From: a virus
Virus record (IMG/VR): IMGVR_UViG_3300018019_000131
Span: 1-31,320 of that record
Direction: 5' to 3' (one strand)
DNA length: 31,320 bases
The notes under the pieces are model-generated. The model searched no databases and was not told the origin of the DNA. It saw only the letters and a list, made by a program, of their open reading frames with translations. Every line of letters starts with the position of its first letter. The first letter of the stretch is position 1. This document shows positions 631-21,343 of this stretch, one piece after another. A program made the position numbers and the translations under genes.

Positions 631-3585
631 CTAGACTCCGCAAGCTCCCCCCACACACGCCTCGTCTCGCGAGTCCTCAAACGTGAGCCCAGCCTTGCCA
701 ATCGCCTGCTTATAATCTACTGCTTCTAATGGCTGCCCGCTACGACTTCCGTTTGGATACGCTGTAACGCCACGTAGACGAGGAAGATACTTCATCAAGG
801 TGTCTCCGAAGTCCTTGACCTCCGCCTCATCCACGATAGGATACGGCAGATTCAGAGTTGAACTTATTCCGTGATCTACATAGTCCTGGAGGTCAGCCTG
901 AAACTTGATGCGACGCTCAATATTATACGCAAGCGAATAAGCATCCTCGATGTCATCAGGTGCGACTCCCATCTCTTCTATCAAATGATACGCCGTCGGG
1001 TCTATCACGTACTGATACTTCCAAAGCCTATCCATGTCAAGGAAGCGTCGCTTATATGCCACACAAAAGATCGGCTCTGCTGATGTCGTAGTCTCTGCGA
1101 CGATGCCAATAGTTCCATTAGGCGCGATAGCTCTTGTCTTTACTGGGCGACTTAGATTGTGTTGATCTGCCCACTTGGATGCAATCTCCGTGGATTTCTC
1201 GTACTCGGCAAGCCACTCACGAAGCTCAGGAACCATCTCGTATCGGTACCCACGCACGAGAAGCCACTCATGTAGACCCATAAGCCCTAGACCAAGACGA
1301 CGGTTCTTCTCGCGCGTACCAATGATCTCTGAATGAGGTACGTCAGAGTAAACAGTGCCCGCCAAAAGCAATAACGTAGCAAGGCGAATAATCTCCTTGA
1401 ACTCATCCAACGTTTTGACGCGAGCCAAGTTGATAGAACCAAGATTGCAGACATCCGAATCATCCGAGCTACATAACTCTGTGCAAGCGTTTCGCAAGTT
1501 CTCTCCCTCGTTCTCACCAGCATCAATAGAAAATCCAGGCTCTCCATTCTTGACCATATTAGCTGTCGTCTCCCAGTACACACGATGAGCTAGCTCGTGT
1601 TGTGGATGATCATCGTTCTTATATGCCTCAAAGAATTCTGTGTCGAGGATAACCGATATGTTGGTCATGTCCATCTCGGCATGAGCATGTTGGTCTACCG
1701 CCTTAGCAGCGCGTACCTCGTCTGACCAATCCTTGCAATGAATCCAGTCAAACACGTCAGGATGATTCCAATGAAGTCCTCCCCAGATTGCGCTATTATG
1801 AACCAACATACCCTCAGCTACAAACTCATTTCTTCCTTCTACTTCGATGTCGTAAGTATCAATCACGCGACCAGCTTGTATACCCTTGACCTTTACAGGA
1901 GTATAAGATTGCTCTCCATTATAATCTTCGAATCTCTGCATAGCAATATCGGCATCGTAATTTTTCATTCCTAGACCGTGGTGAATCTTCTCTTCTTTGC
2001 CCATCCCGGCTGAAATAGCATATGAGAATTGTGGGGTACTTTGAAGTACAACCTCCTTATGAGCCACCCCGCTCATAAGAAACGCAAACCTTTCTACGTG
2101 ACGCTTATCGGTAACGTTGAGATGATAAAGAGATTGCCAATTATCCTTGGCCGGTCGGACCATCTTTAGTCTGGTGGCTAATCCCAAAGACGCACAAAGA
2201 GCCTGTACTTGACGTAGATACGTGGGATAAACTGAAGCGGCTATACAAACGGGGCGACTTGATACCGAACCATCTGCATCAAAAAGGCCAGCTACATAAG
2301 CAGCCCGAATAGAAATAGTTCCCTGCAAAATAAAATCAGGGATCTCAATTGATTCGTTAGGCTTCTTTATCTGTGATAAATAGTTGGCTAATTGCCACGA
2401 CTTTGTACCGATATCCCAACATTTTCCATCTCCCTCGCGACGCATTACGTTGGTTCCAAAACGCGACAATTGGCGTTCTGCTTCATCAGCTACGTCCGGT
2501 AAATCATGTGCCGCTGCTATTGAAACAGAACCACCGTTATAACCATCCTTTACCCGTACACTAACGCAACCATCCCCGTGGAGTAGACCAATAAACCAAG
2601 CCATCTCTAGATCAAGTTCTGGAATAATAATATCCTTACACGTAGTTGACATCTTAGGCTTTGTGTATTTCCAATCTGGAAGCGAAGTTTCTATACCCTC
2701 AATCGGTTGAGGAACAAAAATCATTCGATCTCCCTTTGTAAGGTTTTGTGCCTCCTTCCAATCGTAATCACCTAGCGTATTGGCTAATACAGCAACGCGA
2801 TGATTAGGCGTACACTCAAAATCTCCCATTTGAGTATTGATCAAAATTGTTTGTTGTTGGCCTTGTGAAATATTTCCCTGGACAGTATGATACCCGTCAT
2901 AGGTCATCACTTGATCTCCAATTTGAACATTTTGAATTGGAACTAAACCGCGTTCTAAATGTACAAAAGTATCAACTGGCAAACACCGCCGTTGGCCACC
3001 TTGCATCACGTGGCGAGCAATCTCATTGACCATATTTGCTGGAGATAGAGGTCCCGTAGCTACTCCTCCTGTCTTTTTGATGCGCGTGTTATTGGGTCGC
3101 ACATCCGAGTAGACCACACCAATACCTCCACCGCACGAAAGAGAAAGAATCGACTTACGAACCAGGTCAGCCCAACCCTCACGAGAGTCCTCACACCTGT
3201 AGAGAAAACAGTTGTTGGTTTGGTGGAACTGTCGTCCAGCCTGAGCTAGCTTACGTCCACCAGGAAGCAGCTTACGTTCGATGATAAGCTTTACAAGAGC
3301 CTGAAACTCAGGATCGTGATCGGTGTACCCAAGCGCCCCTAATTCGTGACGCACGACACGATATGCAGTGTCCGGCCATACCTCTATTGGTTCGCCATCC
3401 TCATCCTTCCACGAGTACTTATCGAGGTACTGCTTATGAGCCCAAGGTCCCATCTGGTCATCGAGTGGGTCTTTCTCTAGGTCTTCGACTGTATCAATCG
3501 TGGTTTCTAATTTCTCCCACTCGTCGTTGAAGTCGTCGGTTGAAAATTGAAATCCCGCATCGACGGGAAGTAGTGCTGCCTCCAT
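631..3585 (-). CDS. nrdJ: Adenosylcobalamin-dependent (class II) ribonucleotide reductase with intein
   Basis: Reduces ribonucleotides to deoxyribonucleotides using a cobalamin-generated thiyl radical, feeding phage DNA synthesis in the cytoplasm. The precursor is 984 residues; removing the intein (201-597) leaves about 587, a small class II size. Visible hallmarks: C126 (NNCFLYR), the glycine-rich CGGGIGVVYSD segment at 151-161, the N699-x-C701-x-E703 radical site, its redox partner C713 (DVCNLGS), the PNGTIG loop near 822-827, and the C-terminal CVGGAC pair (C977, C982) that regenerates the active site. No NrdB-type partner is adjacent, as expected for class II. AGGA lies six bases before the ATG. 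It follows the zinc-finger gene by 31 bases and probably shares its promoter. A vitamin B12-type dependence is a family property, not visible here, and no cobalamin riboswitch is seen. Confidence 0.95.
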   Translation of the reverse strand: MEAALLPVDAGFQFSTDDFNDEWEKLETTIDTVEDLEKDPLDDQMGPWAHKQYLDKYSWKDEDGEPIEVWPDTAYRVVRHELGALGYTDHDPEFQALVKLIIERKLLPGGRKLAQAGRQFHQTNNCFLYRCEDSREGWADLVRKSILSLSCGGGIGVVYSDVRPNNTRIKKTGGVATGPLSPANMVNEIARHVMQGGQRRCLPVDTFVHLERGLVPIQNVQIGDQVMTYDGYHTVQGNISQGQQQTILINTQMGDFECTPNHRVAVLANTLGDYDWKEAQNLTKGDRMIFVPQPIEGIETSLPDWKYTKPKMSTTCKDIIIPELDLEMAWFIGLLHGDGCVSVRVKDGYNGGSVSIAAAHDLPDVADEAERQLSRFGTNVMRREGDGKCWDIGTKSWQLANYLSQIKKPNESIEIPDFILQGTISIRAAYVAGLFDADGSVSSRPVCIAASVYPTYLRQVQALCASLGLATRLKMVRPAKDNWQSLYHLNVTDKRHVERFAFLMSGVAHKEVVLQSTPQFSYAISAGMGKEEKIHHGLGMKNYDADIAMQRFEDYNGEQSYTPVKVKGIQAGRVIDTYDIEVEGRNEFVAEGMLVHNSAIWGGLHWNHPDVFDWIHCKDWSDEVRAAKAVDQHAHAEMDMTNISVILDTEFFEAYKNDDHPQHELAHRVYWETTANMVKNGEPGFSIDAGENEGENLRNACTELCSSDDSDVCNLGSINLARVKTLDEFKEIIRLATLLLLAGTVYSDVPHSEIIGTREKNRRLGLGLMGLHEWLLVRGYRYEMVPELREWLAEYEKSTEIASKWADQHNLSRPVKTRAIAPNGTIGIVAETTTSAEPIFCVAYKRRFLDMDRLWKYQYVIDPTAYHLIEEMGVAPDDIEDAYSLAYNIERRIKFQADLQDYVDHGISSTLNLPYPIVDEAEVKDFGDTLMKYLPRLRGVTAYPNGSRSGQPLEAVDYKQAIGKAGLTFEDSRDEACVGGACGV
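1795..2985 (-). mobile_element. Intein with LAGLIDADG homing endonuclease in NrdJ
   Basis: An in-frame insertion of 397 residues (201-597) that splices itself out of the reductase. It begins with C201 (CLPVDTFV), has the block B motif GDFECTPNHRV, two dodecapeptide motifs of a LAGLIDADG endonuclease (MAWFIGLLHGDG near 328-339 and AAYVAGLFDADG near 428-439) and ends with VHN before S598. The exteins join as QGGQRR-SAIWGG, restoring a continuous reductase core just before the helix leading to the barrel. All residues for class 1 splicing are present (Cys1, block B TxxH, His-Asn, Ser+1), so it looks active. By eye it is more AT-rich than the extein DNA around it, which suggests separate arrival. 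Confidence 0.93.
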
Positions 3586-6585: not shown

Positions 6586-6975
6586 ATGTGGTTTGTAAGT
6601 AAAAAGAAATATCAATGGACGTTAGACGAATGGGAATCTGATTGGAATTGGTGGTCAAAACGTACTGATGAACTTGAAAAACAAATTGTAAAACAAGATA
6701 CACTATTGGCTCATAGTATTCCACAAAATATTTATCTAGGGAGCCCACAGACAAGAATTGATAGTCATATTCCTCAATGGGAACGAGAAGAGAAAGAGTG
6801 GGGTTATGAGGCATATGCTAAAGGTAATGTACGTATTGAGGCTGAGGCGATTGACGAGGATGATGGTAAGGAGCCTGGTTATACTCGTGCGCGGGTAAGT
6901 ATTTTTGATTCTGAGTTAGAGGATTCACCAGCATTGGCGGCAGCTAAGGCTGTTACCGAGGAAGCAAAACTTTAA
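6586..6975 (+). CDS. Unknown protein, 129 aa, AT-rich gene
   Basis: Not recognised. The start is the ATG at 6586 because AAAGGA lies about eight bases upstream; a longer frame overlapping the loader gene has no such site. The N-terminal 60 residues are rich in tryptophan, lysine and glutamate (YQWTLDEWESDWNWWSKR) and probably helical, perhaps a coiled coil. The C-terminal third has the form of a small beta-alpha domain (GYTRARVSIFDSELEDSPALAAAKAV). Codon choice is clearly more AT-rich than in both neighbours, suggesting recent acquisition. Its stop and the next start share bases as TAATG. Confidence 0.65.
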   Translation: MWFVSKKKYQWTLDEWESDWNWWSKRTDELEKQIVKQDTLLAHSIPQNIYLGSPQTRIDSHIPQWEREEKEWGYEAYAKGNVRIEAEAIDEDDGKEPGYTRARVSIFDSELEDSPALAAAKAVTEEAKL

Positions 6976-9539
6976 TGTCAGGTGAAATCAGACGCGGCCG
7001 TAAAGCCATAGAGGAAGCAAGCCAAGGCGGCATTCAGAAGCTACTAGACCGACTCTCAGAACGAGGGTTTGACCCAGAAGAGCAAAGCAAAGGTTGGCTT
7101 GCCTTATGCCCTGTTCATGGCGACACAAATCCAAGCTTAGCCATAAACGAAGGCGAAAACGGACAGACGCTCATCTATTGTCTGAGCCATCAGTGTGAGT
7201 TCAATGACATTCTTGACGCACTTGACTTGGAGGCGCGTGATTTAGGAGGTATTCAGAAAACTTCTAAGAGCAAGAAAACTATCGAGTATATTTATACCGA
7301 CGTAAACGGAAATCCTGTACGTAAGAAGGTTCGTAAGGCTGGAAAGCAATTTTCACAAGCGTGGTGGGACGGCAACGAGTGGGTTTGGAAAGACGTTTCA
7401 AAGAACGCCCCAACACTACTTTATCACCTACCCGATGTACTTGACGCCGTAGATGTAGGCGAGGTCATCTACGTTTGCTATGCGGACGATACCGAAGTGC
7501 TCACGCCATCTGGCTGGGTGTCGATGGCCGAGTTATCTGATGACGCTCTGGTCGCGCAGTACGACCTTGGTGAGGTTTCGTTCGTTGTGCCGTCCGCGCA
7601 GCAAGTCTTCGACTACGCCGGTCCTATGGTGTCGATTGACGCCAACTGGTCTGGGTTACTCGTTACTCCCGATCATCGTGTGTTGTGTAAGTATCCTGGT
7701 TTCTCGCCGGTAACCATTCCCGCCGAGAAGGTCAACGTGCAGCGCCAGCTTCCCGTTGCCGGGGTCCGCACGGGAAACGGCAACGGGCCGAGCGCCGATG
7801 AGGCGCGGCTGCTCGCCGCGTGGCAAGCCGATGGTGTTAACTGCGCTCGTGGCTATCGCATTGGTTGGAACCTACGTAAGACTCGTAAGATAACTCGGCT
7901 TCGTTATTTGTTCTCTGTACTTGGTATCGAATGGCAAGAGCAGCAATTTCCGTCCAGATTCGGATGGACATATTTAACGATTGATCGGCGGGACGTACCT
8001 TTATTACAGCGGTTGGCCAATAAGCGTTTTGGATGGGATATTTTAGATTGGCCAATAGAAAGCCGCCAAGCGCTGCTTAGCGAGCTGGGCTATTGGGACG
8101 GCGACCAGATCGGCAAAGAAGGTGTGCGTTATTACACTGCCGATAAGCAGTGTGCGGAGGTTATTTCCGCCGTCGCTGCAACAACTGGATGGGGTGCGAT
8201 TACGCGTCTTGATGAACGGATTGAGCGCCCAAAGCAAAGCCCGCAGTGGATTGTTAACCTTGTTCCGCGCGATTGGCGGCGGCTTGGTCGCAAGCCGGGC
8301 CGCGTAGACTATGATGGGCGCGTCTATTGCCTAACGGTTCCGAGCGGCTATCTCGTGACACGTCGGCAGGGCAAGGTAACAGTTTGCGGAAATTGCGAGG
8401 GCGAGAAGGACGTAGAGGCGCTTATCGAGGCAGGGGTGACGGCTACTTGCAACCCCGATGGTGCAGGTAACTGGAAAGATGAGCTATCTATCCCACTTGA
8501 AGGCGCGAACGTCATCGTTATCGCAGACAGAGACGAGGCGGGTTACCAACATGCCAACAAGGTTGCCTTATCATTACGTCAACGCGACTGTGACGTGCTG
8601 ATTGTCGAGGCCAAAGTTGGCAAGGATGCTCATGACCATCTACGCCTATTTGGCGTTGAAGATTTTGTAGCTGTAGAGGAAATTAAGACTCTACCTGGAG
8701 AAAGATATGGCACTGGAGATTTCGCTCGCGCCATTCAGAGTTATTTTGATAAAGTATTCCGAGGCTCAGGTCCATCCTTTGGTTTTTCCCACTTAGACGA
8801 TTACTTCTATGGGCAACGAGGCGTAACGATATGGCTTGGAGCACCAAAGACGTACAAGAGTTGGGTTCTTGTCAAGGGTCTGAGAGAAAACATATATGCA
8901 GGTAATTGCCCTTGGCATTATTCGTTAGAGCTACCTGCCGAGGAAACCTACATGCGATTGATGTGCATGATTGCCAATATTCCCTGGTGGAAGTATCTTC
9001 GTAATAAACTTTCGCCAGATGAGTGCCAATCCATGAAACAACTAACTGAGGAATTAGAGCAATCAGGGTCCTTTGAAATAGTTAAGCCGCCTCCTGGTGA
9101 ACGTTCAATTGACGATTTGGTTAGCCAAGCCAAAGACGCCGGGGCGGCCGTTGTCTTCATCGACCAGCTTCAATATGTTGAGGTAGATGGACGTTCGCTT
9201 GGTGACTGGAACGAAACGGGTAGATACTTTGGCGTACTTGACCGTGCTCGTAACTACTCCGATGAGATTCCGATTTGTTTTGCCCATCAGTTCAATCGCA
9301 CCATAATGAACGCGGAGACAATGCCAGTAGTGGAGCAAGCAAAGGCGTCTAACGCTATCGCCGAGACGGCCACACAGGTTCTTGGAATATGGTCGAGTAA
9401 AGAGATGCGCGAATCGTCTCAGTTTGAAATTGGTACATTAGCTTCTCGTAACAATAATCTACGTAATTGGTCGGCCGAAGTTAATTTGACCAATGAATGC
9501 CGTTTCGACATTACGGGAGTAGCGGAGAGCGATGGCTGA
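6975..9539 (+). CDS. Primase-helicase (zinc finger, TOPRIM, RecA-type helicase) with intein
   Basis: A fusion of primase-like and DnaB-like parts, as in many phages, acting at the replication fork. The precursor is 854 residues, about 548 after splicing. In order: a CHC2-type zinc finger (C45, H48, C69, C74), a TOPRIM domain whose catalytic CEGEKD follows the intein (E475) and whose IADRDEAG supplies D518 and D520, then a RecA-type helicase core with Walker A GAPKTYKS (622-629) and Walker B VVFIDQ (726-731). The Walker A has tyrosine where glycine is usual. I see no separate catalytic primase RNA-polymerase subdomain beyond TOPRIM, so priming activity is likely but unproven. The N-terminus (EIRRGRKAIEEASQGG) closely resembles that of the SSB-like protein at 10086. 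Confidence 0.9.
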   Translation: MSGEIRRGRKAIEEASQGGIQKLLDRLSERGFDPEEQSKGWLALCPVHGDTNPSLAINEGENGQTLIYCLSHQCEFNDILDALDLEARDLGGIQKTSKSKKTIEYIYTDVNGNPVRKKVRKAGKQFSQAWWDGNEWVWKDVSKNAPTLLYHLPDVLDAVDVGEVIYVCYADDTEVLTPSGWVSMAELSDDALVAQYDLGEVSFVVPSAQQVFDYAGPMVSIDANWSGLLVTPDHRVLCKYPGFSPVTIPAEKVNVQRQLPVAGVRTGNGNGPSADEARLLAAWQADGVNCARGYRIGWNLRKTRKITRLRYLFSVLGIEWQEQQFPSRFGWTYLTIDRRDVPLLQRLANKRFGWDILDWPIESRQALLSELGYWDGDQIGKEGVRYYTADKQCAEVISAVAATTGWGAITRLDERIERPKQSPQWIVNLVPRDWRRLGRKPGRVDYDGRVYCLTVPSGYLVTRRQGKVTVCGNCEGEKDVEALIEAGVTATCNPDGAGNWKDELSIPLEGANVIVIADRDEAGYQHANKVALSLRQRDCDVLIVEAKVGKDAHDHLRLFGVEDFVAVEEIKTLPGERYGTGDFARAIQSYFDKVFRGSGPSFGFSHLDDYFYGQRGVTIWLGAPKTYKSWVLVKGLRENIYAGNCPWHYSLELPAEETYMRLMCMIANIPWWKYLRNKLSPDECQSMKQLTEELEQSGSFEIVKPPPGERSIDDLVSQAKDAGAAVVFIDQLQYVEVDGRSLGDWNETGRYFGVLDRARNYSDEIPICFAHQFNRTIMNAETMPVVEQAKASNAIAETATQVLGIWSSKEMRESSQFEIGTLASRNNNLRNWSAEVNLTNECRFDITGVAESDG
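7476..8393 (+). mobile_element. Intein with degenerate LAGLIDADG endonuclease in the TOPRIM domain
   Basis: An in-frame insertion of 306 residues (168-473). It starts at C168 (CYADDTEVLTPSGW), has block B LLVTPDHRVLC, two dodecapeptide-like motifs (LLAAWQADG and LLSELGYWDGD), block F VYCLTVPSGYLV and ends VCGN before C474. Splicing joins EVIYV to CEGEKD, immediately before the TOPRIM catalytic glutamate, a typical highly conserved target. The residue before the terminal Asn is Gly, not the usual His. Parts of the element near 7690-7850 look more GC-rich than the host gene, in contrast to the AT-richer intein of NrdJ, suggesting a different origin. Confidence 0.92.
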
Positions 9540-15700: not shown

Positions 15701-16130
15701 TACCATTGACCTAAAGACGCAACAAAAATGCGAGTTGGAGCTTCTAAATGTAATCCTCACGGACAACACCGAGGAGATTTTGGAGCAACACCAAGAGGAG
15801 ATTGAGAAATGCGATTCTTGGGACGATGCGGTGCTCGCATGGGAGGATAAAGAAACCGACGAGGAACAAACCCATCAAGATTATCGCCTACCTGCTATCA
15901 TTACAGGTATCAAACCAACAAAGGTAAAGGCAAGCGGTAACGCGATGGGTATCGTCACTATGGAGTACGGCAGACACGAGTTGACATTCGCTTGTTTCTC
16001 TAACAAGTGGGTTGCCAATAAGTTCCTGTTCAAGCCGCATAATGTCGGTATCTTTACGATTCGACAATCCGCCCCAACCGATAAGCGTAGTAGTGGGTAC
16101 CATTTTGAGCAGGGAAGGCTCCTTTCGTAA
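12789..16130 (+). CDS. dnaE: DNA polymerase III alpha subunit (DnaE type), 1113 aa
   Basis: The replicative polymerase of the phage. It opens with a PHP domain (LHQHSCFS at the N-terminus, GLTDHG, FGAELYAG, DDGHYAFPKD), then the family C core: GPGRGSSAG near 380-388, PDIDTDF near 421-427 with the two catalytic aspartates, FQCETHAGKDL, LNRPGPSRAG, YQEQ and FNKSHSIAYA, and a C-terminal OB-like region (RLPAIITGIKPTKVKASG). PHP metal ligands look largely kept, so PHP-based proofreading is possible. I start at ATG 12789 because GGTGGAG lies nine bases upstream; a GTG five codons earlier would complete the first PHP strand better and cannot be excluded. The stop and next start are fused as TAATG. 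Confidence 0.96.
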   Translation: MSLHQHSCFSSLDGWSTVNEIANRTLEIGRSYSGLTDHGVVAGHLEFDKAMRKRGINPVFGAELYAGINFNNLKKGERDQAHLIALAMTDEGLKNLWRLVNATADRDHFHHVGRVSQEDIVKYKEGIIFTSACPLGLVPKGLLRGDDTHLNWYLDNLGDNFRIEITTYPGDAEFKDMDSEGEEATVTPRLINELLITAADERGVPVTYGDDGHYAFPKDFEKHDMYLAAQTRQSIYTPVEERKMYHPPNAMCIKDEKMVREAFHYLPKKKVDEVIANTHAVGEAADAHLPTVDRPHLPVFIPTECPWIDSEDKRDATALFTDLVGEGIDRIYSGTEREEEAWTKATHEVEVLTEDGLEHYFLMAWDIMQFCKLEEINVGPGRGSSAGAIVAYALGITDVDPLYYDLYFERFWNKGRTDGFPDIDTDFAKSRRSEILDYLIARWGADRVCSIGSVTHMKPIAVIEKLATACEIDHGEVEQLKKIVKQTKDLEIHGHEQIGWNPEIEPDKVIYVNTSTEMNPEGDKVGKEIEQWIGDNEKRQKYVEMCEAACSRNSNYGVHASGIVVSDIDLAAYAPAYLRGGKAEGIPATMFPMKEIEKLKLVKEDVLGLKTLDTLAEWDKLMEEKGITTEWSGLDRQEHSEEMWKLLDEGFVAGIFQCETHAGKDLAERLKIRNVEDLGVLVALNRPGPSRAGVPNRYIARKEGRSEITYPHPLLEEILKPTFALFLYQEQIIRFMSELGYSLGDADAMRKILGKKQPEKLSEIFEGFNEWDKKGFLQVAMEKGFSKEVATEVWKDIEGFASYSFNKSHSIAYAIIAFRCLYAKFYGPQEWYIACIRTVDNAKRVDLTPQYIKEARRMGIKVLPPDIRYSKAEVDVHDGHIYFGFGDIKGVGTGGEYLVKLRDENRFDISTPEILEEMLVCLNDMELAHKKEAIAEDNPLPSDWKSPKQLLNEKKLSLVHAVGAWNDLEGATIDLKTQQKCELELLNVILTDNTEEILEQHQEEIEKCDSWDDAVLAWEDKETDEEQTHQDYRLPAIITGIKPTKVKASGNAMGIVTMEYGRHELTFACFSNKWVANKFLFKPHNVGIFTIRQSAPTDKRSSGYHFEQGRLLS

Positions 16131-17200
16131 TGAATGACAAACGCAGAGACACATTAGAGAAGATTCGTAACAAGACTATCAATAGTTTTGGTGCTAATTC
16201 ATCAATCATAGGTAGTGACAAGTACGTCTTGAATGTTGTATCTTCACCGTCGCTAATGCTTGACTATAAGCTCGGTATCGGTGGCTTTCCGTATGGCGGT
16301 ATGGTTGAGGTGTTTGGAGCAAATTCCCTCGGAAAGACGACGTGTATTGGATACGGAACCCTGGCAAATGTGCAGCGCGAAGGCAAGATTCCTGCATTGA
16401 TTGCGATGGAGCCTAACTTTGACGAGGACTGGGCTTTCAAACTGCATGGTCTAGACCCAAATCTTATTTTAGTGCAGCGCCCAGATAATGCAGAGCAGGC
16501 ATTCGAAATGCTTTATGACCTTGTGTATGACACAGAGGTTAATTACATCCTACTCGACTCTGTTGGGGCGATGGGGGCCTCATCCACACAAGAAGGTGGC
16601 AAGCAAAAGGCATATGGCGTATCAAGTGAAGTTACGTCGGGACTCAATGCCGTCATGCCTCGGTTATGGAAGGCTAATAAGGGGCTCATGATTCTCAATC
16701 AACAGCGCCAAGGGTCGGGTGGTACGCAGACATGGTATGAGTCTCCTGGGGGCGAGGGACTAAAACATCACGCCTCTATTCGTATTCATCTCAAGCCAGG
16801 GGCGAATAAGTATTACTCTGTTATTGATGGCGACAGGGTGCTTGTGGGTCGAGAATTGAAGTGCGTATTCAAGAAGAATAGGATGTCTCAAGCCGCGAAT
16901 AAGTCCGCCGAGTTTACGTTCTACAACATCGAGACAAAAGAGTACGGACTAGGTATTGACAAAGTATTGGATGTCATCAATACGGCCAAGGTATCTGGCG
17001 TCATGAAACCTCAAGGGTCTTGGCTCGAACATCAAGTCTTTCCGAAAGGCAAAATGCAAGGAATTGTCAAGGCTCGCGCCTTCTTCAAGGAGAACCCAGA
17101 GGCGTTCGAGATAATTCGTAAAGACGTAATGGGGGTAATGATTAGAAACGAGCTTGAAATTGCTCAGGGGCCGCTACAAGAGGCAGAGAATGGCAGCTAG
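16130..17200 (+). CDS. recA: RecA-like recombinase, 356 aa
   Basis: Strand-exchange ATPase that would act in phage recombination and recombination-dependent replication. Near full RecA length. Seen: a GGFPYGGMVEVFG approach to Walker A GANSLGKTT (63-71), the EPNFDEDWAFKLHGLD segment equivalent to the RecA D-A-E-H-A region, Walker B NYILLDSVGAM (D143) and the L2-like loop with NQQRQGSGGTQ, then GGEGLKHHASIRI. The C-terminal domain is present but not acidic as in E. coli RecA. It differs enough from bacterial RecA to be phage-owned rather than a host capture. Immediately downstream come two nucleases and RuvC, forming a recombination module. Confidence 0.94.
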   Translation: MNDKRRDTLEKIRNKTINSFGANSSIIGSDKYVLNVVSSPSLMLDYKLGIGGFPYGGMVEVFGANSLGKTTCIGYGTLANVQREGKIPALIAMEPNFDEDWAFKLHGLDPNLILVQRPDNAEQAFEMLYDLVYDTEVNYILLDSVGAMGASSTQEGGKQKAYGVSSEVTSGLNAVMPRLWKANKGLMILNQQRQGSGGTQTWYESPGGEGLKHHASIRIHLKPGANKYYSVIDGDRVLVGRELKCVFKKNRMSQAANKSAEFTFYNIETKEYGLGIDKVLDVINTAKVSGVMKPQGSWLEHQVFPKGKMQGIVKARAFFKENPEAFEIIRKDVMGVMIRNELEIAQGPLQEAENGS

Positions 17201-17564
17201 AGGCTCAAAGAAGCGTCTTTCAGTTGACCACGAGGACTTTATCGCGCGAGTTTATGGCGGCGTACGTTCTCCCTCATCTGGCGGAGCGGGAAATGATTGC
17301 GGCGACGTACGGACGAAGAACAGTTTGTTCGAGTGCAAGGCTACGACGAAAAGTCAATCGAAAATCCTCAAAGAGTTTGAGAAGGTTACTAAGGAGGCAT
17401 ATTCTGAGGGTCGCGAACCTCGTTTAGCTCTACGTTACTTTGCCCCCGAGAGTATTCTTGCCAACTTAGATGGCTGGGTGGACCTTATCGTGCGCACAGT
17501 TGAGAACGACCAGTTACGCGAACAAGAATTTGAGTATCTTCAAGCGTCTGAGGGGTGCCTGTGA
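17190..17564 (+). CDS. PD-(D/E)XK nuclease, Hjc-like, 124 aa
   Basis: A small nuclease of the restriction-endonuclease fold. The signature is a basic N-terminal helix with E15 (HEDFIARVYGG), RSPSSGG at 26-32, GDV with D39, and ECK with E48 and K50 on the next strand, then a helix of lysines and glutamates. The R-S-P-x-S-G element with D...E-x-K matches archaeal Hjc-type Holliday junction resolvases in layout, so junction cleavage is a reasonable guess; a mismatch or Vsr-like nuclease is an alternative. The ATG at 17190 overlaps the recA end by 11 bases and follows AGAGG. It is coupled to the next nuclease gene by GTGA. Confidence 0.72.
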   Translation: MAARGSKKRLSVDHEDFIARVYGGVRSPSSGGAGNDCGDVRTKNSLFECKATTKSQSKILKEFEKVTKEAYSEGREPRLALRYFAPESILANLDGWVDLIVRTVENDQLREQEFEYLQASEGCL

Positions 17565-18295
17565 TAAAGCTAGATAAATCTCAGATTACAAAAAACTTGG
17601 GTAATAAGCATTACAAATTCGTACCTTATCTTGAGAAAGCTATCGCCGATTTTGATGACGAATGGCAATTTGTCTATCAGGAAAAGGAGCAAGACCACCA
17701 TTGGCATCCATCGAGTCATTGTGTTCAACCCGCAACTGAGCTATATGCGATAGCGCGCGGAGAAGTTGAGCCCTGGGTTATATCTGGGTCCTTACGAAAG
17801 ACGTTCCAGGTCGGTCACTTCTGGCATCAATGGCTTCAGTACATCACGCTACATAAGTTGGAGATGTGCAAGCCCGAGGCTATTGAGCGCAAAGGAAAAC
17901 ATGAATGGGGTACAGGTCACTTCCAGGCCGTAGCTGGAGCAGGAGATATAGCTCCGCTTGAAGCCCCTGGTTGGACTGGACTAGTTGATATTAAGACTAT
18001 GAGTGCCCAAAACTACGCTCGTCCGCAGATACCTGAGTTTTTCGCCGACAAGTATGAGTGTCAAATGAACATTTACATGTTCCTTTTTGATTTGGGCGAA
18101 GCTATGATTCTAGCGGTCAACAAGGACACTGGCGAATTTCGAGAGGTTATATATCAACGAAATTTGTCGCTGATAAACACCCTTATCGAGAAGTGGCAAT
18201 TTGTTGGCGCATGTCTCGATGCCGATGAAGCTCCGACCAAGGCCGACAATGACATGTTCGACCTTGAGGGTCTACTTACTGGACCTATTGCCTAG
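17561..18295 (+). CDS. Cas4/RecB-family PD-(D/E)XK exonuclease, 244 aa
   Basis: A RecB-type nuclease domain protein. Motifs in order: H in VGHFWHQW (about 84-91), D in GAGDIAPL (near 127), D-x-K in LVDIKTM (near 142-144) and the helix Q-x3-Y in ECQMNIYMF (near 167-173). These are the marks of the lambda-exonuclease/RecB/Cas4 group often called Cas4-family exonuclease in phages. The four cysteines of the iron-sulphur cluster in true Cas4 are not evident. I take GTG 17561, overlapping the previous TGA as GTGA after AGGGG; a GTG two codons upstream is possible. It probably resects ends for RecA. Confidence 0.82.
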   Translation: MIKLDKSQITKNLGNKHYKFVPYLEKAIADFDDEWQFVYQEKEQDHHWHPSSHCVQPATELYAIARGEVEPWVISGSLRKTFQVGHFWHQWLQYITLHKLEMCKPEAIERKGKHEWGTGHFQAVAGAGDIAPLEAPGWTGLVDIKTMSAQNYARPQIPEFFADKYECQMNIYMFLFDLGEAMILAVNKDTGEFREVIYQRNLSLINTLIEKWQFVGACLDADEAPTKADNDMFDLEGLLTGPIA

Positions 18296-18306
18296 CCGTC
18301 TTTTTA

Positions 18307-18326
18307 GTTAATCTGTTACAATTAAC
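18307..18326 (+). promoter_or_regulatory. RuvC promoter with operator-like dyad over the -10
   Basis: TGT-TACAAT (18314-18322) lies exactly eight bases before the ATG at 18331, so the message should be leaderless. The -10 is embedded in a perfect inverted repeat, GTTAAT-8-ATTAAC, from 18307 to 18326. A dimeric protein bound there would block the promoter. No -35 is evident. Confidence 0.5.
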
Positions 18327-18330
18327 CCTT

Positions 18331-18828
18331 ATGAGGGTAATTGGAATAGATCCTGGGGCCACTAGAGCAGGCTGGTCCATTCTTGATAGTGGCCCTACCC
18401 ATATTGCTTCGGGCGTAATTCATCATCCGCGTTTGCCCAAGCAAAAGTTTCAGGAGTACCGCATAGAACTTACAGAACATTGGGTAGAAGAGTCTTTCGA
18501 GCTTCTAGAAGAGTACAAACCTGATGTGCTTGTGTCTGAGACCGTGCCTAGTCGCGGCCCCGCCATTATGGACCAATTATATTTGGCTAACGTACAGGTA
18601 ACAGTCTTGCACGCGATTGCCATATCATATGGCGTCAAGGTAGTACAGGTATCGGCGCGGTCAGTACAAGCGAAGATAGCCAAGCGCCGACCAGGCTATA
18701 AAGTGACTAAAGCGCAAGTGAGGTCAGGGGTTATTGAGATATTTCCTGAGTTAAAAGAGCGTCTCAAAGGCTCTGTGTTTGAGGCATCAGATGCCATTGG
18801 AATTGCAATGTATTATTTGACGAAATGA
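18331..18828 (+). CDS. RuvC-like Holliday junction resolvase, 165 aa
   Basis: Resolves branched DNA, probably clearing recombination and replication intermediates before packaging. The RNase H-like core is complete: D7 in VIGIDPGATRAGWSI, E70 in VLVSETVPS, and the C-terminal acidic pair E151/D154 in FEASDAIGIAMYYL. Size is near that of bacterial RuvC (about 170). No RuvA or RuvB homologue is present in the window, which is usual for phage enzymes. It has its own leaderless-type promoter with an operator-like dyad and follows the Cas4-like gene by 35 bases. Confidence 0.93.
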   Translation: MRVIGIDPGATRAGWSILDSGPTHIASGVIHHPRLPKQKFQEYRIELTEHWVEESFELLEEYKPDVLVSETVPSRGPAIMDQLYLANVQVTVLHAIAISYGVKVVQVSARSVQAKIAKRRPGYKVTKAQVRSGVIEIFPELKERLKGSVFEASDAIGIAMYYLTK

Positions 18829-18860: not shown

Positions 18861-19262
18861 ATGCAAGACGCTCCAAAAAAGAATAAACAAATAACGCAAG
18901 CCGTTCCGCTCCATCGGATTCTAAGGGAGGTGCTCCGTCACTACATTGAGTACCGCGAGCTAGTCGCTCAAGACGGCCGCAATGATATTATTGACTATGG
19001 ATATTGGGTTTATAACGAGGACGGGACCCGTAACCATAAAGAGGACGTATCAATTTCCTTCTGGGACCTTCATCGAGGCATCAAAGAGTTAGCTCCACGA
19101 AAGAGAGAGGCACTCTGGTACAACGTGATTTGCGACATGAAGCAACGTGATGTGGCAAAAATCATGCACATAACTACAGTATCGGTTGGGCAATATACAC
19201 AGAACGCATGCGAACAGTTAGTGTGTGATTATTTCATGCCAGAGGAAATTGAGAAAAAATGA
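18861..19262 (+). CDS. Sigma-region-4-like helix-turn-helix protein, 133 aa
   Basis: The C-terminal half (about 77-125) matches sigma factor region 4: LAPRKREALWYNVICDMKQRDVAKIMHITTVSVGQYTQNA in pattern, that is L-P-x-R-x-R-E-A-L then a helix-turn-helix D-V-A-K-I-M-x-I-T-x-x-S-V. Region 2, needed to melt promoters, is absent; the N-terminal half is a helix plus a polar stretch with aromatic residues (IIDYGYWVYNEDG). So this is more likely a transcriptional regulator or a co-factor touching RNA polymerase or DNA than a complete sigma factor. It has a private leaderless promoter and is coupled by ATGA to the intein-bearing gene. Confidence 0.72.
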   Translation: MQDAPKKNKQITQAVPLHRILREVLRHYIEYRELVAQDGRNDIIDYGYWVYNEDGTRNHKEDVSISFWDLHRGIKELAPRKREALWYNVICDMKQRDVAKIMHITTVSVGQYTQNACEQLVCDYFMPEEIEKK

Positions 19263-20314
19263 GGACTTCAGTGAAAAACGAAATATATGATTTGTCGGTA
19301 AAAGAGAATCACTATGCGTTTGATAGACCCGCAACCAAAGATGACGACGAGCATGACGAGGATTATGACATCCTTGAAGAGGAAGAGGAGACTGTTTTTG
19401 AACAAGGCAAAAAGTATAAATCGGAAGAACTAATTGAGTTTGCCGATAAACTATTGCGCGCAGACTCAAACCGAGAGCTATGCCGCAAATGTAAGGAAAA
19501 GAACGATGATAAAGACTATTTGCCGTATGGAACAGAGACGGGGGAGATTGAGTCTATGCCTCAGTTCACGGCAGATGGAGAGCCGCTATTAGATGACGAG
19601 GGTAACCAATTGTATCTCGATTTCCCTGAACTAAAATGCGAGAAAGGTCATCGTTGGTTCAAGGGAGAGGGACAACGTCGAGACATTCGAGGACCAAATC
19701 CTATCCTATTTGAGAGCCATTTGTACAACCGTAAAAGACGCGAGATTTATACGGCGTCAGGTCAGCCTGACCCTGCATTTACAATGGATAGGTTCGGAAG
19801 ACCTACTGTTGGTATATACAATCGCGCACATCCCGATGGCCGCAAGATTAACACAGCCTCTCAGCGCGCCCGTAACGGCGCGCCCCTGGCATTAGATACT
19901 CCTCTTTTAACCGTAGAGGGTTGGAAGACTATGGGTACAGTTGAGGTTGGCGATTATGTTTATGGTCAACAGGGGTCGCCAGTTCGCGTTGTAAAGGTAT
20001 CTTCGATTTTTGAGGACCGCCTTTGTTATCGAGTGACCTTTGAGGACGAAGATTCTGTTATTGCCGACGAGGAACATCGTTGGCCTCTGCTAGAGGGTGT
20101 AAGAAGAAACACGGGAGAAATCTTTCGCTATGGAGAAAAGGTTTTTCTTGAAAACCCAGGTCCGTGTACTTTACTATTGCCTAACAAACCATCAATCGTC
20201 TATATTGATGCGGTAGATTCTGTTGATGTTAGATGTATTACGGTTTGGAACCCAGCTCATGTCTTTTTAGTGGGTAAGGGTATGCACTTGACTTGTAACA
20301 GTTACTACCGTTAG
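19259..20314 (+). CDS. Acidic zinc-ribbon protein with C-terminal class 3 intein, 351 aa
   Basis: The host protein is not recognised. After splicing it would be about 214 residues. It has a very acidic stretch (25-46), a likely split zinc ribbon (C75-x2-C78 and C127 with H131 in LKCEKGHRW), and a basic conserved-looking tail with aromatic residues (LYNRKRREIYTAS, GIYNRAHPDGRKI, SQRARNG). The intein occupies 211-347, leaving only SYYR after it before the stop. The gene is coupled to the sigma-4-like gene by ATGA and precedes the probable terminase small subunit, so a link to late transcription or packaging is possible but only positional. Confidence 0.8.
   Translation: MRTSVKNEIYDLSVKENHYAFDRPATKDDDEHDEDYDILEEEEETVFEQGKKYKSEELIEFADKLLRADSNRELCRKCKEKNDDKDYLPYGTETGEIESMPQFTADGEPLLDDEGNQLYLDFPELKCEKGHRWFKGEGQRRDIRGPNPILFESHLYNRKRREIYTASGQPDPAFTMDRFGRPTVGIYNRAHPDGRKINTASQRARNGAPLALDTPLLTVEGWKTMGTVEVGDYVYGQQGSPVRVVKVSSIFEDRLCYRVTFEDEDSVIADEEHRWPLLEGVRRNTGEIFRYGEKVFLENPGPCTLLLPNKPSIVYIDAVDSVDVRCITVWNPAHVFLVGKGMHLTCNSYYR
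19889..20299 (+). mobile_element. Class 3 mini-intein, 137 aa, no endonuclease
   Basis: A Hint domain starting at ALDTPLLTVEGWKTMG (residue 211) with alanine instead of a nucleophile at position 1. The three diagnostic residues of class 3 inteins are all visible: W275 in block B (ADEEHRWPL), C326 in block F (SVDVRCITV) and T345 in block G (HLTCN), with S348 as +1 residue. In this class the block F cysteine, not residue 1, starts the reaction. The residue before N347 is Cys rather than His. There is no room for a homing endonuclease. The exact N-terminal junction could be off by one or two residues. Confidence 0.88.
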
Positions 20315-20339: not shown

Positions 20340-20597
20340 ATGTTAGAACGCAAACCATATAGTCACAAAGACGAACACGGGTATCTGTTATATTTCAGAA
20401 CCAAAGGTCCGTTGCTAGTCTTGGGCTACCATGTAAACCGAAGATGGCGGATTTTATTAGAGGTTACATTGTATCCATGTAAAAGCAAGTCTTTGGGTAA
20501 ATCTTGGAACTTCAATCTCGGACCGTTTGGAGGCCATTTTCGCTTATCGCTTGGAATGTCTGAGATTTTAGTCGGTATGAAACGATGGACGACGTAG
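20340..20597 (+). CDS. Small unknown protein, 85 aa
   Basis: Not recognised. A basic, beta-rich protein (LLYFRTKGPLLVLGYHV, RILLEVTLYP, HFRLSLGM) with glycine turns and one cysteine, consistent with a small all-beta fold. It has no signal peptide or membrane helix. It starts 11 bases after a TGC-TATACT element and overlaps the next gene by 13 bases. The combination of own promoter and overlap suggests it is the first gene of the group that includes the terminase-type protein and the SNF2 helicase. Confidence 0.65.
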   Translation: MLERKPYSHKDEHGYLLYFRTKGPLLVLGYHVNRRWRILLEVTLYPCKSKSLGKSWNFNLGPFGGHFRLSLGMSEILVGMKRWTT

Positions 20598-21343
20598 TAG
20601 AGCAGCCAGAGTTTGGCGTTTCTGATGAGGAGCGTCTAAAGCGCAAACGAATCCTTGACCGAAACTCTGGCGCTGAACTAAAGCGACGTTGGGAGCAAGG
20701 GGATAGAGCCGAGATTGATAAGCGCGAAGTAAGTATTGCGCCGCCGCGTATTATCGAGTCAAGATGCCACGTCTGCGTCTCGCCATACAGAGACTTCATT
20801 GAGGAAGCTTTAGTTCGCGGTCATTCCTATGAACGGATTGCCCGACAGGTTCCCGTTGATGAGAATAACAAGAAAATTGATAGGCGGTCGATAGCTAACC
20901 ACTTGAAGAACCATATGGACCTTCAGCGAATGGCTATCGTTGAGGAGCTTCAGATTGAGGCTAGAGCCGCCTCACAAAACATTGAAGAGGGAAGCCAAGG
21001 AGCTAAAACCGACCGAGGGTTTTTAAAGACTGCTATCGCTAAAGGGTTTGATGACATTATCAAGGGAGTTTCGACGGTTGAACCCAAGGATATGATTCAG
21101 ATGATAAAGCTCCTGAATGAACTCAACAGTAGCGCCTCGAATACGCGCGCCGAGGAGACAGAGGTTCAGCTACGCATCTTTGTGCGAGCCGTTCAGGAAG
21201 TTTGCGATAAAGAGACCTTAGAGGCAATCGTGGACAAGGCTCATGCACTGCGCGAGATGGATGACATCGAGGTAGAGGTTCGCGGAATCATGATTCCTTC
21301 AGAGCCTAAGATGATTGAGGCGGAGGTTGTCGATGAAATATAA
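20585..21343 (+). CDS. DNA-binding protein, probable terminase small subunit, 252 aa
   Basis: The segment from about 60 to 115 has the pattern C-H-V-C-x4-R-D-F-I-E-x-A-L-x-R-G-H-S-Y-x-x-I-A, then R-R-S-I-x-x-H-L-x-x-H-M. This cysteine pair plus helix-turn-helix is one I associate with small-terminase-like proteins of phages, which recognise packaging sites. The middle is a helical region suited to oligomerisation (DIIKGVSTVEPKDMIQMIK) and the tail is acidic. No large terminase lies within the window, so the assignment rests on this motif and size only. A general helix-turn-helix regulator is the alternative. The start at 20585 overlaps the preceding gene. Confidence 0.55.
   Translation: MDDVVEQPEFGVSDEERLKRKRILDRNSGAELKRRWEQGDRAEIDKREVSIAPPRIIESRCHVCVSPYRDFIEEALVRGHSYERIARQVPVDENNKKIDRRSIANHLKNHMDLQRMAIVEELQIEARAASQNIEEGSQGAKTDRGFLKTAIAKGFDDIIKGVSTVEPKDMIQMIKLLNELNSSASNTRAEETEVQLRIFVRAVQEVCDKETLEAIVDKAHALREMDDIEVEVRGIMIPSEPKMIEAEVVDEI

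Follow-up and report, generated by a model that had tools for sequence, protein, structure and literature searches.

A phage class 3 mini-intein that interrupts the conserved C-terminal motif of its host protein

Introduction

One expects to find inteins in active sites, flanked by long exteins on both sides. The locus described here raises the question of how an intein followed by only four residues of host protein is to be understood. The window, which is the whole stretch of viral DNA analysed (31,320 nucleotides, IMG/VR record IMGVR_UViG_3300018019_000131), contains an open reading frame at 19259-20314 on the plus strand. This frame encodes 351 amino acids and holds a class 3 mini-intein, P209-N347, after which there remain only S-Y-Y-R and a stop codon. 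The initial annotation offered two readings: either the tetrapeptide is essential, for example as a tag completed by splicing, or a longer extein once followed and has been lost, leaving the Hint domain as a C-terminal processing module. The features to which we refer are the following.

16130 to 18828, plus strand: upstream module with RecA-like, Holliday-junction resolvase, Cas4-like exonuclease and RuvC-like genes, assigned by module comparison
18861 to 19262, plus strand: sigma-70 region 4-like gene (Pfam Sigma70_r4_2, E=1.3e-7), with an ATGA overlap where the host gene starts
19259 to 19882, plus strand: N-extein, residues 1-208, homologous to intein-free IMG/VR proteins (49-82% identity)
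19481 to 19651, plus strand: zinc-ribbon-like segment C75-x2-C78 ... C127-x3-H131, made of invariant family columns and presumed to bind metal
19883 to 20299, plus strand: class 3 mini-intein P1-N139, 139 residues, placed by empty-site comparison, the match to 6bs8 and a structural model
20024 to 20026, plus strand: Cys48 of the intein, sharing its number with Cys48 of Msm DnaBi1, a redox partner there (PMC6195587)
20075 to 20083, plus strand: block B His65 and Trp67 (the W of WCT), with Asp62 just upstream, invariant in the alignment
20234 to 20236, plus strand: block F Cys118, the initiating nucleophile and the C of WCT (PMC6195587, PMC7664689)
20291 to 20299, plus strand: block G Thr137 (the T of WCT), Cys138 where a penultimate His is usual, and terminal Asn139, from residue comparison
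20300 to 20311, plus strand: C-extein Ser-Tyr-Tyr-Arg, the same motif that stands at the end of intein-free homologues
20585 to 21343, plus strand: conserved downstream gene, phrog_2807, with matches to hypothetical proteins in Bixzunavirus and in phage E3

Results

Position and class of the intein

The edges of the intein were set to codon precision by comparison with intein-free IMG/VR homologues. The insertion is in frame and is missing from the seven aligned homologues as well as from L008, L226 and L227, in which the flanks are continuous. Its first residue is Pro1, so that neither Cys nor Ser occupies this position; Ser348, the first residue of the tetrapeptide, stands at the +1 nucleophile position, and the stop codon of the host gene lies at 20312-20314. 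The 139 residues contain no homing endonuclease. The annotated class 3 intein four residues ahead of the end of its host is thus borne out, with the open reading frame, the Hint domain, W-C-T and the four-residue remainder all present; its assigned range (19889-20314) captured the element but started two residues late and took in the C-extein and the stop codon.

Similarity to known Hint domains, which had been named as a check on this assignment, is far above chance. In a phmmer search of the PDB the intein matched the Mycobacterium smegmatis DnaB class 3 intein (6bs8) with E=2.2e-26, over residues 2-137 of 139, and that of M. chimaera DnaB (6rix) with E=3.1e-24. A PHROG search returned intein-bearing terminases (E=3.7e-17), and Pfam on its own gave a match below cut-off, at 12-14 bits. 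The AlphaFold2 model of the intein has a pLDDT of 82, and its nearest structures in Foldseek are 6bs8 (TMt 0.94, rmsd 1.3 A) and 6rix (TMt 0.89). The Hint fold therefore extends along the full length of the element.

W-C-T is present across blocks B, F and G (W67, C118, T137), as are the block B His (H65), the terminal Asn (N139) and a +1 Ser. The penultimate residue is Cys138. A penultimate His is usual among class 3 inteins and lies outside the definition of the class. The key residues of DnaBi1 are Asp62, His65, Trp67, Cys118, Thr137 and Asn139 (PMC6195587), and all six are kept here with identical numbering. His126 of block F is also present, and a block F His of this kind is able to replace the penultimate His in its role (PMC5050341).

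To place these features we took the class 3 relatives with the best matches, 80 from viral contigs and another 80 from GTDB genomes. In this survey, which was confined to class 3, chose its members by how closely they resemble the intein's N-terminal half and includes near-duplicates, Thr occupied G5 in all 155 relatives with a parsed C-terminal junction and His the penultimate position in 154; the exception, L062, is a second copy of the same gene, on the same contig as L004. Among 146 complete downstream frames the shortest C-exteins are 4 residues (the present intein), 9 residues (L207) and then at least 96. The C-extein of 9 belongs to a decayed terminase fragment: L207, from Nonomuraea zeae, is a full-size class 3 intein with an endonuclease in an apparent terminase remnant (64 amino acids before it, 9 after) and looks like an intein that has outlived its host gene. 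Two further observations concern class 3 inteins. Across the surveyed loci, residue 1 of the intein follows the extein residue at -1, Lys(-1) nearly always going with Ala1 and Ala, Gly, Ser or Arg with Pro1. In L032-L034 the gene that holds the class 3 intein is Cas4-like, and in-frame TGA codons interrupt its reading frame, which may reflect stop-codon reassignment in those phages.

The host protein and its gene neighborhood

The N-extein runs from an acidic N-terminus through the zinc-ribbon-like segment to a DUF7236-like part that ends ...QRARNGA. The description of the host as an acidic zinc-ribbon protein accords with this layout, in which the C-x2-C...C-x3-H columns are invariant. When the C-terminal part was compared with DUF7236 (PF23883 / phrog_2849), the score of 16.6 bits fell below the gathering threshold of 27, and all seven members of the host family match this domain weakly. 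Gene order agrees with membership in the replication module to which DUF7236 belongs. The order DnaE, RecA, resolvase, Cas4-like, RuvC/RusA, sigma-4-like, host, phrog_2807 is common to the window, to Rhodococcus phage E3 (gp154-gp162) and to the Bixzunavirus Sauce (gp205-gp215). In the latter two the sigma-4-like gene is represented by E3 gp160 and Sauce gp213, and E3 gp161 and Sauce gp214 stand in the position of the host, Sauce gp214 being a full DUF7236 member (E=2e-60). The DUF7236 proteins thus lie, like the host, between the sigma-4-like and phrog_2807 genes, and they share with it the motif R.(K/Q)RE(I/V)...G.P(D/E)P...G.(Y/F).R. They differ in that E3 gp161 and Sauce gp214 have neither the zinc ribbon nor an SYYR tail, whereas proteins of the host family contain a zinc-ribbon insert and carry the tail HPxGR...GASYYR.

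No isolate-phage homologue of the host was found by tblastn, and its relatives in isolate phages were reached only through profiles and gene order. An AlphaFold2 model of the intein-free homologue L014 has a pLDDT of 56, too low for function to be read from it. Gene order identifies the host as related to DUF7236, with a zinc ribbon of its own and a place in a DnaE-RecA-Cas4-RuvC-sigma4 module, and its pairing with the sigma-4-like gene suggests a role as a transcription or replication accessory. The Pfam match listed above upholds the annotation of that upstream neighbor as sigma-4-like. The downstream neighbor had been called terminase-like, a label that is not supported: the gene matches phrog_2807, of unknown function, and the hypothetical phage proteins already mentioned; an 85-aa orphan open reading frame separates it from the host gene. 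The Cas4-like exonuclease of the window is intein-free.

Intein-free homologues share the tail

The tail was compared in ten distinct intein-free homologues, seven of them in an alignment. Eight of the ten stop at the motif, mostly as NGASYYR-stop. The five close homologues (L014, L007, L016, L017 and L009) end in (K/R)NGASYYR-stop, L018 in KSGASYYR-stop, L226 in KNGASFYR-stop and L019 in SGSGFYR-stop. In L008 the motif KNGASYYR is followed by 21 further residues, its stop being absent, and in the more distant L227 KNGASFF is followed by about 50 residues. The final Tyr-Arg is invariant in the seven-homologue alignment. Paralogues in two sister genomes carry the motif internally (GCSFYSGVK and GASFYGTKR). 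A host-protein paralogue in L050 and L051 (IMGVR 3300037222_000100 and 3300047089_000244) has an internal GxSFY and a Cys-rich C-terminal segment, and lies near a probable major capsid gene, which is on the opposite strand.

The question whether intein-free homologues end in a tail like SYYR is therefore answered affirmatively for eight of ten, L008 and L227 running on. The intein interrupts the last conserved motif of the host, which is usually the end of the protein, and the C-extein is complete rather than truncated, since the close relatives that have no intein end at the same position. A truncated large C-extein is ruled out by the same homologues. That the tetrapeptide is essential is supported to the extent that sequence can do so, by the conservation of S-Y-Y-R, SFYR or GFYR. 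SYYR is, however, the ordinary conserved C-terminal motif of the family and not a tag that splicing creates. A free C-terminus is not strictly required, given that two homologues extend past the motif.

Origin and distribution

The closest relative of the intein is only about 49% identical over the splicing blocks. In the tree the intein occupies a long branch (1.54) in a weak clade (88/88), together with phage terminase and portal inteins that are mostly Pro-first, some of them at GA/T or GA/S terminase sites (the slash marks the junction). Its codon usage resembles that of neighboring genes, which is consistent with long residence. Among ten contigs of the phage group, a copy was found only in L004, the twin of the window population, which is 100% identical to the window over 9.7 kb and is for this reason not an independent case. 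One other contig of the ten has a terminase intein. A third match is weak (E=0.007) and runs antisense to a capsid-type gene; we did not count it as genuine. No donor was found in sister phages, save for a distant Walker B terminase intein. This one is of class 3 type and lies at HN/CVTIDEAAHM in L058 (IMGVR 3300050821_001428, 144 kb), which is itself a distant sister phage. An ectopic jump from the terminase P-loop R-K-N-G-K/T of L010 to the look-alike R-A-K-N-G-A/S was considered and rejected, as the tree separates the present intein from that of L010.

The lineage is intein-rich, for the same contig carries two other inteins. At 631-3585 (minus strand) a ribonucleotide reductase large subunit of 984 amino acids contains a second intein, of class 1 type, with the junctions GGQRR/CLPVDTF...GMLVHN/SAIWGGL and a LAGLIDADG endonuclease (PF14528, E=1.6e-15). 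At 6975-9539 (plus strand) a primase/helicase of 854 amino acids has a third in its Toprim motif (IYV/CYADDTEVL...TVCGN/CEGEKD), also of class 1 type, with a penultimate Gly.

Splicing and the alternatives

We consider it probable that this class 3 mini-intein, lying within N-G-A/S-Y-Y-R-stop of a protein from a phage DnaE-RecA-Cas4-sigma4 module, splices, and that it has been kept most likely through constraint on the tail. What the comparisons establish is where the element is inserted and where its borders lie, that its anatomy is that of class 3, and that the tail is conserved; splicing itself and the need for the tail we infer. The gene would yield a 351-residue precursor in which the Hint domain folds. 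Cys118 would attack the Ala208-Pro209 bond at the N-junction, the N-extein would be transferred to Ser348, and cyclization of Asn347 (Asn139 of the intein) would free the 139-residue intein, with an acyl shift finishing the bond. This is the order described for other class 3 inteins (PMC4031507, PMC7664689). The predicted product has 212 residues, ends ...RARNGASYYR and follows the plan of the intein-free homologues, which equal the spliced sequence to the residue. The frame is open across the intein, and related contigs have no such element at this site or elsewhere, one terminase intein apart, which fits a mobile insertion. Should the tail be needed, only precise deletion restores it, and an intein without an endonuclease would then most likely be retained because the tail it interrupts is constrained. 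On the other side, the penultimate Cys could slow or uncouple Asn cyclization, and the intein is known from one population, the window and the identical L004.

The same Cys138, unique among the relatives, bears on whether splicing might be conditional, the intein switching the tail through, for example, a redox pair Cys48-Cys118 as in Msm DnaBi1, with Cys138 as a modifier. The two cysteines carry the same numbers as those that form a disulfide in DnaBi1, an intein that H2O2 reversibly keeps from splicing (PMC6195587), and in a phage intein the rate of splicing is tuned by the penultimate residue (PMC5050341). Cys48, however, is common in class 3 inteins and is needed for DnaBi1 activity (PMC6195587), so that its presence tells little; no benefit to the phage is evident, and intein-free relatives manage without it. 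We regard such control as rather unlikely; it is compatible with tail-restoring splicing, to which it would add a regulatory role. In an extended form, the protein would be inactive until SYYR is added, at a redox-dependent rate set through Cys48, Cys118 and Cys138 that would tie the replication/transcription module to the state of the cell; this we judge quite unlikely.

Loss of the penultimate His could instead mean that the intein is degenerate, either inactive or capable only of cleavage, so that the protein ends at Ala208 or remains fused to the Hint domain. The long branch and drift in block F, with Trp122 where relatives mostly have Asp, point the same way, but all nucleophiles, His65, Asp62, His126, Asn139 and Ser+1 are kept, the frame is intact, and several inteins splice without a penultimate His (PMC7664689, PMC5050341). 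Degeneration thus appears distinctly unlikely. The annotated alternative of a BIL- or Hedgehog-like module that only cleaves after loss of a larger extein draws on the C-terminal place of the Hint domain in the precursor, on L207 as proof that such decay happens and on the residues that follow the motif in the distant L227. It founders on the close intein-free relatives, which end at the same SYYR, and on the intact Asn139, Ser+1 and other splicing residues; BILs are without a +1 nucleophile (PMC4031507), and here Ser+1 is present both in the host and in the intein-free homologues. This alternative is very improbable. Even less credible is an assembly artefact joining the intein to an unrelated gene end: the element is known from a single population, but its insertion is in frame and codon-precise, the flanks are homologous and gene order is conserved on both sides.

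Discussion

As a whole, these results suggest that the rule of intein placement is "inside a conserved motif", and that such a motif may consist of the final four residues in a protein not known to be an enzyme. If the retention argument holds, the intein is a natural footprint, marking the tail residues as important in an uncharacterized phage family. With Cys138 and a native C-extein of four residues, it also offers a ready system in which to test C-terminal peptide ligation, as well as Asn cyclization without a penultimate His in class 3 inteins.

The element is of a known kind, and none of the intact class 3 relatives examined has its intein in such a position. It is closest to the DnaB inteins of M. 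smegmatis (DnaBi1, 6bs8) and M. chimaera (MchDnaB1, 6rix/6riy), with 38-40% identity and TMt up to 0.94; with DnaBi1 it shares a length of 139 residues, the lack of an endonuclease, W67/C118/T137, D62, H65, C48, N139 and a +1 Ser. The DnaB inteins differ in their helicase P-loop site, in C-exteins of more than 200 residues, and in having His138 and Ala at residue 1 where the present intein has Cys138 and Pro. The class 3 inteins of phage terminases (TerL P-loop/Walker B) and of C1 mycobacteriophage Cas4/RecB exonucleases resemble it in block sequences and splicing residues, and the Bixzunavirus Cas4 intein resides in the same gene module. In contrast to the present intein, they mostly carry endonuclease domains (about 320-400 aa) and occupy enzyme active sites, with C-exteins of at least 96 residues where the gene is intact. 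BIL domains share the Hint fold and autoprocessing but are without a +1 nucleophile, which the intein described here possesses together with WCT.
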